This document shows positions 58,849 to 61,520 of a stretch of 64,000 nucleotides of DNA, one piece after another; the first letter of the stretch is position 1; the number at the start of each line of letters is the position of its first letter. A model generated the notes under the pieces. It had not been told where the DNA came from. It made no database searches and saw nothing but the letters and a program-made list of their open reading frames with translations. Source of the stretch: Terriglobales bacterium (GTDB lineage: Bacteria > Acidobacteriota > Terriglobia > Bryobacterales > Bryobacteraceae); contig JAIXQP010000021.1 in NCBI GenBank assembly GCA_027485675.1, positions 62,001 to 126,000 on the forward strand. Reading direction: 5' to 3'. The translations under genes and the position numbers were made by a program.

Positions 58849-58888
58849 AAAGGCCCGCCGGTCACCAACCGGCGGGCCTTTTCGTTTT
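58849..58888 (+). terminator. Strong rho-independent terminator after the receptor
   Basis: AAAGGCCCGCCGGT (58849-58862) and ACCGGCGGGCCTTT (58868-58881) form a perfect 14-bp stem over a CACCA loop, followed by TTTTCGTTTT. This is the clearest intrinsic terminator in the window and isolates the receptor from the next operon. Confidence 0.9.
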
Positions 58889-58984
58889 CTGAAACTCCGC
58901 CCTTGCAATCCGGACCATTTCGGACGTATATTGGCAGAGTACCGATACTTGCAAATGAATTGCAGTTAAAGAGTACCACTAAAA

Positions 58985-59093
58985 AAGGCTGGCGGGGTTC
59001 TTTGCGAGAGTGCTCCCGTCAGCCTTGGTGATTGCCCGGAGTCCGGAGCAACTCCTCTATCTTAGCGGGTTGCCCGGGCTTCTCCCAAGGAGA
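58985..59093 (+). promoter_or_regulatory. Structured leader RNA with SD-masking hairpin upstream of the small Cys-pair protein operon
   Basis: Three paired elements follow one another. Stem 1: AAGGCTGGCGGG (58985-58996) with CCCGTCAGCCTT (59015-59026), 12 bp including one G-U pair. Stem 2: GCCCGG (59034-59039) with CCGGGC (59074-59079), enclosing GGAG-CAA-CTCC (59045-59055). Stem 3: TCTCC (59081-59085), loop CAA, GGAGA (59089-59093), which masks the Shine-Dalgarno sequence five bases before the ATG. GCCCGG can also pair with other CGGG runs, so alternative folds exist. This is the layout of a translational switch. It does not match known riboswitch consensus that I can recall. Confidence 0.5.
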
Positions 59094-59097
59094 CCCT

Positions 59098-59319
59098 ATG
59101 CCCCAGCATGCCCAGGGCGCGGCTTGGCCGCTCGCCTATAACCCGCAGATCGGTTCTATCTTCCGCTGCCCCGACTGCGCATCGATCCACATCGTCCTCG
59201 GTGCGACTAACCTACAGGTAAGCCCACAGACTTTCTTGGAAGTCGTCGATCTCGTGGCGCGCGCCGCGGCGAACTTCGAACTCATGCTCGAAGCGCAACA
59301 GGAGGACCGATGCGCCTAG
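59098..59319 (+). CDS. Small Cys-pair (CPDC) protein, hypothetical
   Basis: A 73-residue protein with a strong AGGAG site. It has no signal peptide. A single C-P-D-C motif in the middle (IFRCPDCASIHIVLG) could bind a metal or form half of a zinc ribbon. The next part (LQVSPQTFLEVVDLVARAA) is helical. It loosely resembles small cysteine proteins of the DUF6686 type, an uncertain match. The stop overlaps the TonB receptor start by 10 bases, so the genes are co-translated behind the structured leader; a metal-related role is an inference from context. Confidence 0.75.
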   Translation: MPQHAQGAAWPLAYNPQIGSIFRCPDCASIHIVLGATNLQVSPQTFLEVVDLVARAAANFELMLEAQQEDRCA

Positions 59320-61520
59320 CCGCGCTCGCCCTCCTCACCACCGCCCTTTGGGGCCAGGCTTCGGTCGAGTTCCACGCCGTCGACCCCACCGGTCTACCCG
59401 TCGCCGGAGCCACCGTCCGCCTTCGCCATGCCGCCACCGGCCAGGAACTACGCTGCAACACAAATGCAACTGGATCCTGCTCGCTGACCCTGACTCAAAC
59501 CGGCGAACATCGCATCTTCGCCACCGCCGCCGATCTGTCCGCCACACTCCCCTTGCCCGCGGCAGCCGTCGTCACCATTCCTCTTGAGCCCGCACTCCTC
59601 CGCACGGCCGTCACCGTCGTCAGCGGCTCCCGCATCGAGGAACTCCAAGACGAGTCCCCCACCAAAGTCGACGCCATCACCCGCGCCCAGATCGAATCCA
59701 CTGGCTACGAACGCGTCTCTGATGTGCTCCAGGAACTGCCCGGCGTCCTCGTCCGCCGCGGCAATACCGCCACCGTCGGCGGCGAACAGATTCAGGGCAT
59801 CGACTCCCGCCAAGTCCTCGTCCTCCAGGACGGCCTGCCCGTCCCCGGCGCCCGCGGCATCAAGTCCGGAGTCGTCAACCTCAACCGCCAGTCCTCCGGA
59901 CGCCTCGGCCGCATCGAAGTCGCCAAAGGCACCGCCTCTTCCATTTATGGCTCCGACGCCATCGGCGGCGTGATCAACATGATCACCCAAGAGCCGCAAA
60001 CCCCATGGGAAGGCGGGTTCCTGCTTTCCGGCGGCAGCCTCGGCATGCTCGATAGCCGCGTCGACCTCGGCGCCCGCCGCGACCGCTTCTCCTTCTATCT
60101 CAACGGCGGCACCAACCGGATGGACTCCTACACCCTCTTCCCCAACGCAGCCACCACCGTCGGACCAGACACCCGGCGCCACGACATCCTGTTCAAAACT
60201 CGCGCCCAGTTGCTCTCCAACTTCTCCCTGGGCTTCACCGCCAACGCCTATCGCAATCGGGACGAGGGCCGCAACGTCAGTGAAACCGGACTGGTCTCAG
60301 GTGTCGGCATCGACTCTACCCAATCCTACGCCCTCGTCGCCGACTGGACCCTGAATCCCTCCACGGTCCTGCAAGCGCGCGCCTACTCGGCCCGCTACGA
60401 CGAAAACAGCATCAGCACCCCCATCGGTCGGCCCGGCCCTCCCGCCCCCGCCAATCTCAACGAACAGCTCAACCGGCTCGACGCCACCATCTCCCGCCAG
60501 GTCGGCGGTCACCTCCTGCAAGGCGGCGCCGAATGGGCTCAAACGCTCTATCGCGGTGCCAACCGCCTCGTCGGCGACAACGTCGGCCAACAAGTCACAG
60601 CCAGGGACTTCTGGATCCAGGACAAATGGCAAATCCGTCCCCGCCTCACTCTCACCATCGGCGGCCGCGTCACTAACCATAGCCTCTTCGGCGGCGCCGC
60701 CGTTCCCCGCGCCGGCATCGTCTACCGGCTCAACGACTCTATCCTCCTCCGCGCCTCCTTCGGCATGGGCTTCCGCGCCCCGGACCTCGGCCAGCTCTAC
60801 TTCCGCTTCGCCAACCCCGCTACCTTCTATCAGGTCATCGGCAATCCGAACCTCAACCCCGAACACAGCCAAAGCTGGCAAACCGGCGTTACCTTCCGCC
60901 GCGCCCGCTACCGCCTCGGCGTCACCCTCTTCCGCAATAACGTCCGCGACCTCATCGATACCCTCTTGATCGGCACGCCCCGCACCCGCGACGAACTGAA
61001 CGGCCTGCTCGTCAACTTCGGCATCCCGCCCTTCTTCGACCCGTTGGTCAACCGGCAGACCTTCACCTATCTCAACCAGTCCCGCATCTTCACGCAGGGC
61101 GCCGAAATCGATGGCGAGTACGCCTTCACCCGCTCCTTCCGCGTCTCAGGCGCTTACACCTTCCTGCACGCCAAAGATGCCGTCAACAACCGCGGCCTCC
61201 CTCAACGGCACCGCCACACCGGCGTCGTGCGGGCCGACTACACCATCCCGAAGCTCGGCCTGCAGACCAACGTTCGCGGAGCCTTCTATAGCCACTGGCT
61301 CCTCAACGCCATCACCGGCACCCGCGGCCTCCCCTTCCAGATCTGGGACGCCTACGTCTCCCGGACTTGGCCCCGGCGCGTCGAAACCTTCTTCACCGTC
61401 GACAACCTCAACAACAGCCGCGACGCCAAACTCCAGCTCCCCGTCCCCAGCTTCGACCGCCCCGACTACGGCCGGACCTACCGCGCCGGTCTCCGTTACC
61501 GCTTCGGCAAAACCGAATAA
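59310..61520 (+). CDS. TonB-dependent receptor (BtuB/FepA-like size)
   Basis: A 736-residue receptor, much shorter than the Oar-like ones. After a signal peptide (to about residue 15) comes a carboxypeptidase-regulatory-like domain (about 18-95), a plug (about 105-225: SDVLQELPGV, IQGIDSRQVLVLQDG, YGSDAIGGVINM) and a 22-stranded-type barrel ending in YRAGLRYRF, followed by GKTE. Size and plug resemble receptors for metal-chelates or cobalamin. The gene overlaps the Cys-pair protein by 10 bases, and the DUF4198-Kelch gene follows after 16 bases, so this is a three-gene operon. Confidence 0.93.
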   Translation: MRLAALALLTTALWGQASVEFHAVDPTGLPVAGATVRLRHAATGQELRCNTNATGSCSLTLTQTGEHRIFATAADLSATLPLPAAAVVTIPLEPALLRTAVTVVSGSRIEELQDESPTKVDAITRAQIESTGYERVSDVLQELPGVLVRRGNTATVGGEQIQGIDSRQVLVLQDGLPVPGARGIKSGVVNLNRQSSGRLGRIEVAKGTASSIYGSDAIGGVINMITQEPQTPWEGGFLLSGGSLGMLDSRVDLGARRDRFSFYLNGGTNRMDSYTLFPNAATTVGPDTRRHDILFKTRAQLLSNFSLGFTANAYRNRDEGRNVSETGLVSGVGIDSTQSYALVADWTLNPSTVLQARAYSARYDENSISTPIGRPGPPAPANLNEQLNRLDATISRQVGGHLLQGGAEWAQTLYRGANRLVGDNVGQQVTARDFWIQDKWQIRPRLTLTIGGRVTNHSLFGGAAVPRAGIVYRLNDSILLRASFGMGFRAPDLGQLYFRFANPATFYQVIGNPNLNPEHSQSWQTGVTFRRARYRLGVTLFRNNVRDLIDTLLIGTPRTRDELNGLLVNFGIPPFFDPLVNRQTFTYLNQSRIFTQGAEIDGEYAFTRSFRVSGAYTFLHAKDAVNNRGLPQRHRHTGVVRADYTIPKLGLQTNVRGAFYSHWLLNAITGTRGLPFQIWDAYVSRTWPRRVETFFTVDNLNNSRDAKLQLPVPSFDRPDYGRTYRAGLRYRFGKTE

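Follow-up and report, generated by a model that had tools for sequence, protein, structure and literature searches.

Positions 58985 to 59100 of the window (the whole stretch of 64,000 nucleotides that was analysed, lying on contig C39 of a 6.6-Mb genome) hold a copy of what is, with near certainty, a new conserved cis-regulatory RNA of Terriglobia. The genes below it leave little doubt that the element controls iron or metal acquisition, and its competing helices make it very likely a two-state translational switch. Overall, we consider the leader to be probably a two-state RNA acting in cis on the translation of iron (metal) acquisition operons, and most likely a riboswitch; that it is an iron-responsive riboswitch is a plausible but tentative reading. 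The element lies ahead of the principal receptors for iron uptake in a soil phylum that is abundant and little understood, and it can be tested at the bench at once, with purified leaders and in the cultivated hosts Granulicella, Terriglobus and Edaphobacter.

Structure, homologues and covariation of the leader

The element starts at 58985, as an earlier note on this DNA had claimed, and its 3' end reaches the start codon. The stems described there are also present in the sequence, and the helices of the leader are listed here:

58985 to 59026, + strand: hairpin P1, a 12-bp stem (58985-58996 with 59015-59026); all 12 pairs show double-sided covariation, with 88.5% of cells paired
58997 to 59014, + strand: conserved P1 loop of 18 nt, GUUCUUUGCGAGAGUGCU
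59032 to 59051, + strand: hairpin P2, UUGC/GCAA (59032-59035 with 59048-59051) and CCGG/CCGG (59036-59039 with 59043-59046), with a bulged A59047
59053 to 59069, + strand: hairpin P3 core, with a conserved UA in the loop; 4 of 4 pairs covary, 76.6% paired
59039 to 59081, + strand: P3ext, the alternative to P2, GAGUCCGG-a-GCAAC (59039-59052) with GUUGC-CCGGGCUU (59069-59081); it is the MFE state of the leader
59076 to 59096, + strand: anti-SD hairpin, UCUCC-CAA-GGAGA (59081-59093) plus GGG (59076-59078) with CCC (59094-59096)

The window leader (58985-59097) folded at -57.5 kcal/mol and was more stable than 200 of 200 dinucleotide shuffles (z = -3.5). This low energy is mostly due to P1, which by itself had a fold z of -4.8 against dinucleotide shuffles; the SD hairpin of the window, taken alone, was of ordinary stability, with 24 of 200 shuffles folding equally well. 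Conservation of the stems was compared with that of their flanks, as had been proposed, and the leader stood far above them, being 98.2% identical across two congeneric species, compared to 75-79% for the equal-length upstream flank and 77-82% for the ORF start. Since the leader is more conserved between these congeners than the first codons, the RNA is more constrained than the coding sequence.

A BLAST search with the leader DNA gave convincing matches in two other congeneric genomes only (a match in G255, E = 5.5e-4, was rejected as not being a leader). Searching with the small CxxC protein encoded downstream led to more distant operons, whose leaders had diverged in sequence and kept the layout. 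Because automatic MAFFT-type alignment misplaces the loops, covariance models were built stepwise. The model R1, made from four distant leaders with the closest relatives of the window left out, detected the element in 12 of the 237 genomes of the family. With its filters turned off, it also put the window-type leader L041 exactly where expected, at a weak score of 15.9 bits; the intermediates L045 and L136 connect the window type with the remaining copies. The window type was among the 16 sequences behind the model R2, so that the window's own R2 score is not independent evidence, and independent support comes from copies outside the training set. Copies were found with R2 in 58 of 257 order genomes (E <= 0.1), in 63 of 399 sampled Terriglobia genomes from at least six families (E <= 0.001), and, at E <= 0.01, in 13 of the 396 genomes sampled from the phylum. 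Two of these 13, the weak matches L159 and L160, lie outside Terriglobia and are probably chance matches.

When 84,980 named genomes were scanned with a pattern, 65 stretches matched, and every one of these that was confirmed by the model was acidobacterial, including copies in Granulicella mallensis, G. rosea, Terriglobus roseus, Edaphobacter, Silvibacterium and Acidipila. Across all GTDB genomes and viral contigs, the pattern matches also included some 16 that are non-acidobacterial and 4 that are viral; the model confirmed none of these, and they were taken as chance. Confirmed copies are restricted to Acidobacteriota. A second match on the opposite strand of L070/L091 is probably spurious. 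One locus (L228:307-395 and 435-527, - strand) carries a tandem pair of copies inside about 220 nt, and one Acidobacteriaceae genome (G321) has up to seven (loci L151, L161 and L164-L168).

The covariation check that had been suggested was run on 16 and then on 101 distinct homologues, and the signal was strong in both. For the 101 distinct copies in alignment A11, which was fitted to the model so that its counts are biased toward it, 84.4% of cells were paired, compared to 67.3% after shuffling and 31-50% after sliding; 21 of the 23 pairs had double-sided changes, 436 cells were changed on both sides (134 when shuffled), and the covariation score was 0.478 versus 0.174. The MAFFT alignment A9 of 16 distinct homologues agreed with this, and RNAalifold recovered P1 unaided, with 12 of 12 pairs covarying. 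Across the family, the stem of P1 varies and its loop of about 18 nt is conserved (consensus CUUUuGGCGAAGC), P2 reads approximately UCGACAACC...GGCUGGCGA, and the P3 loop has a CAUUAUA-like sequence. All five outer pairs of P2 showed double-sided changes in the family alignment, and inspection of A9 placed the P2 register of the window slightly off the family consensus. The element is, in short, a conserved, covarying, structured 5' leader upstream of same-strand genes.

Competing helices around the start site

P3ext can form because the P2 3' strand is complementary to the segment that immediately follows P3. When the partners of each locus were compared with partners swapped between loci, own partners were strongly favored both in the set of up to 100 loci (z = -8.2, 0/2000) and in the 55-locus set (z = -7.3, 0/5000), in swaps that do not model phylogeny. 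The same post-P3 segment was matched to the SD region (z = -5.6, 0/5000 swaps), to the start-codon region (z = -5.1, 0/5000 swaps) and to both combined (z = -8.6, 0/5000, again with phylogeny not modelled), while the control pairings of the P2 3' strand with the start and the SD gave no signal (z = 0.3 and -0.2). Compensated pairings were seen in L132 (CUGCCAGCC/GGCUGGCAG), L076 (GUCAGCCA/UGGCUGAC) and L138 (UUCAGCC/GGCUGAA). Given that the post-P3 segment is complementary to the P2 3' strand as well as to the SD or start, P2, P3ext and the anti-SD/anti-start helix are expected to compete. P3ext and the anti-SD/anti-start helices share at least 4 nucleotides in 51 of 55 loci, an overlap which mostly reflects the shortness of the segment, because swapped partners give 48; in the window, the shared positions are 59076-59081. 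A nested P3ext helix replaced our first idea, a pseudoknot between the P2 loop and the pre-SD region, which was dropped. Comparison between sequences shows the conserved structure, the alternative pairings and the regulon, and the expression platform consists of mutually exclusive, covarying and overlapping pairings whose energetic coupling is weak.

The TCTCC-CAA-GGAGA hairpin that had been proposed to mask the SD does lie at 59081-59093, where it covers the SD of the ORF starting at 59098, but it is merely the local form of this broader anti-SD/anti-start element. Similarly, two states had been proposed from the several partners of GCCCGG. The CCGG segments do have multiple partners and the exclusive pairings covary, but in the decisive pairing the entire P2 3' strand engages the post-P3 segment.

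The energetics of the window were calculated for both states. P2 and P3 together with an 8-bp anti-SD hairpin gave -40.5 kcal/mol and the P3ext state -47.7 kcal/mol, a gap that ligand binding could bridge. The SD hairpin is worth 9.5 kcal/mol in full and 3.9 kcal/mol once P3ext forms, a 4-bp form being compatible with P3ext. In constrained folding, SD accessibility was weakly coupled to P2, with 16 loci lower and 7 higher among the 52 that have a strong SD (0.39 versus 0.43 in the window). As this calculation was only weakly favorable, how large the effect is, and in which direction it acts, is what we infer. In some Acidobacteriaceae copies P3ext is not clear, and some copies are far away from the start codon. 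The weak thermodynamic coupling to the SD in the ensemble model, along with the very stable P1, would also suit a passive leader whose hairpins stabilize the mRNA or constitutively slow translation and sense nothing. This is very unlikely, however, as a passive structure needs neither loops conserved across families nor covarying, mutually exclusive partners.

For the two-state switch, we propose a model in which P1 with its conserved loop, plus P2, would form the sensor. With ligand absent, the post-P3 segment would capture the P2 3' strand as P3ext, leaving the ribosome-binding site free and the gene ON. With ligand present, presumably Fe2+ or an iron-linked or other metal signal, P1 and P2 would be stabilized and P3ext lost, and the freed post-P3 segment could then pair with the SD and/or the start codon, turning the gene OFF. 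Here the competing pairings come from comparison across loci; ligand binding, the identity of the ON state and the metal are what we infer.

The regulated genes and their upstream DNA

The genes following the leader and the operators preceding it are as follows:

58908 to 58931, + strand: promoter-like region in which a partial GACY-N5-RGTC palindrome directly precedes a -10-like TATATT box (the two together at ~58912-58931)
58950 to 58964, + strand: Fur-type operator TGCAAATGAATTGCA, a 7-1-7 palindrome with 0 mismatches to TGCAANTNANTTGCA
59098 to 59319, + strand: first gene, a 73-aa CxxC protein (FRCPDC...IHIVLG...AANFE) with weak DUF6510 similarity; homologues recur in equivalent operons
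59310 to 61520, + strand: TonB-dependent receptor, nearest to hemin/CirA/BtuB-type receptors and below threshold for each
61591 (start approximate) to 63060, + strand: Kelch-repeat protein; DUF4198 similarity weak (E = 0.0034, below the Pfam cut-off)

These are the controlled genes named in the earlier note, a small Cys-pair (CxxC) protein, a TonB receptor and a Kelch protein, and it is the DUF4198 assignment that is weak. The family of small proteins (CxxC or single Cys, HI.xLG and AANFE motifs) recurs next to acidobacterial TonB receptors. Among 86 first major downstream ORFs, sorted into domain categories that overlap, TonB plug (53), CarboxypepD_reg (46), OMP_b-brl_4 (12), PepSY_TM (11), STN (7), ECF sigma (sigma-70 region 2; 3) and ribosomal S4 (2) were found. 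The ECF sigma factor is the first gene below the RNA in L161, L185 and L216 (Acidobacteriaceae), possibly reflecting FecI-like control within the same regulon. Neighbors in the regulon include genes for PiuC/YbiX dioxygenase, PepSY_TM, FTR1, CobN-like proteins and CbiX, and at about 10 or more loci the element is flanked by a Fur-family gene on one side and the receptor gene on the other. The CobN-like HmuS removes iron from heme (PMC12583661). As PiuC, FTR1, CobN-like and Fur-family genes adjoin the element, the regulon is taken to be one of iron acquisition; this supports the metal uptake that had been suggested, with iron as the leading metal.

Upstream of the leader, a strong intrinsic-terminator-like hairpin (GGCCCGCCGG..CCGGCGGGCC-TTTTCGTTTT, 58851-58885) lies 3' of an outer-membrane protein gene, and the element therefore probably begins its own transcript. 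The pattern GACYNNNNNRGTCNTATATT (GACY-N5-RGTC-TATATT), allowing up to 2 mismatches, was found upstream of 42 of 100 copies (~42-48%) compared to 0.05 in shuffles, the window copy having 1 mismatch. We take the GACY-N5-RGTC palindrome to be a putative Rrf2/IscR-like operator, and together with TATATT it is possibly an Rrf2/IscR-family operator common to acidobacterial iron genes. The Fur-type box, with up to 1 mismatch, was present upstream of 23 of 100 copies (0.35 in shuffles), and TGCAAATGAATTGCA in the window strongly resembles the crystallized Fur operator TTGCAAATCATTTGCAA (PMC4506495). These Fur-type and Rrf2-like operators would probably add a transcriptional layer to the control exerted by the RNA.

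Paralogs of ribosomal protein S4 without zinc ligands occur in or near RNA operons of three genomes (L098:4089-4721, - strand; L162:1617-2237, + strand; L242), and in two of the three they adjoin the small CxxC protein. The S4 with a four-Cys zinc site is found elsewhere in G461 and is also the sole S4 of the window genome. Zinc-free S4 paralogs are classic zinc-starvation genes. They are the main unexplained observation, suggest that zinc starvation may be involved, and make zinc a possible sensed metal. Nevertheless, a metal riboswitch that senses zinc or another metal, with general metal starvation as its regulon, is distinctly unlikely: these paralogs fit zinc better than iron, but FTR1, PiuC/YbiX, PepSY_TM, siderophore-type TonB receptors and CobN/HmuS-like proteins are iron genes, and the box upstream corresponds to a Fur operator of known structure.

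S4-like RNA-binding proteins in some operons, and the highly conserved loops of P1 (CUUUuGGCGAAGC) and P2 (UCGACAACC..GGCUGGCGA) over a variable stem, which could be a protein site, are also what would be seen if the two-state leader were operated by a protein (an RNA-binding repressor or an iron-responsive enzyme) recognizing the P1/P2 loops rather than by a ligand or metal ion. We regard this as unlikely, given that the element has no RNA-binding gene as a constant neighbor, that mutually exclusive expression-platform pairings are typical of riboswitches, and that protein control is already supplied by the Fur-/Rrf2-like operators.

The usual explanations of iron uptake invoke transcriptional repressors and small RNAs, and to our knowledge very few iron-sensing riboswitches have been confirmed. 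We put forward only tentatively that the element is a new, acidobacteria-confined riboswitch class with iron itself (Fe2+ or an iron compound) as its directly sensed ligand, stopping translation of siderophore/heme receptor operons on top of Fur/Rrf2 control. If the ligand were zinc or a siderophore, the class would be new all the same.

Comparison with known RNA systems

Neither the window leader nor 17 homologous loci had a gathering-score match among the 4227 families of Rfam 15, the best of the weak matches being chance, and the element was nowhere described in a literature search. The regulated genes do overlap with metal and cofactor uptake, as would those of a diverged copy of a known riboswitch (NiCo/Sensei, cobalamin, TPP, Moco or yybP-ykoY), but the Rfam result and a P1-P2-P3 layout without a closing multi-stem junction make such an origin hardly conceivable. 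The statement that the leader does not fit cobalamin, TPP or NiCo was thus borne out.

NiCo (czcD)/Sensei, a known iron or transition-metal sensor, resembles the element as a metal-linked cis-regulatory RNA in bacterial leaders. NiCo folds as a four-way junction, precedes efflux genes and acts mostly on transcription, whereas the element has three tandem hairpins, uptake genes and probable action at the level of translation. The NiCo/Sensei covariance model had no gathering-score match in the window or its homologues and was absent among the weak matches. The cobalamin riboswitch of btuB masks the ribosome-binding site by alternative pairing. A further likeness is control of translation initiation of a TonB-dependent receptor, described for E. 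coli btuB in PMC11162775. In contrast, the element lacks the cobalamin core, its regulon is iron and not B12, and the cobalamin model was not matched by the window or homologues. The models for TPP, Moco, yybP-ykoY and all other Rfam 15 families were likewise unmatched. A ribosomal protein S4 (alpha operon) leader was rejected, with no Rfam match and S4 paralogs as only 2 of 86 first major ORFs.

Solibacter-1, Acido-1 and Acido-Lenti-1 are comparable as acidobacterial structured RNA candidates, and Weinberg 2010 (PMC2864571) rates all three as not cis-regulatory. The Rfam models of Acido-1 and Acido-Lenti-1 did not match the element. Solibacter-1, which is listed there for Solibacter usitatus only and was not submitted to Rfam, may differ from the element, judging by this description.

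Similar in logic is the generic translational platform (anti-anti-SD/anti-SD), in which a sensor strand and the true SD or start compete for one anti-SD segment. The element differs in that its anti-sequence targets the SD or the start-codon region, covarying locus by locus, and an anti-sequence that co-evolves with the start-codon region makes for an unusual expression platform.
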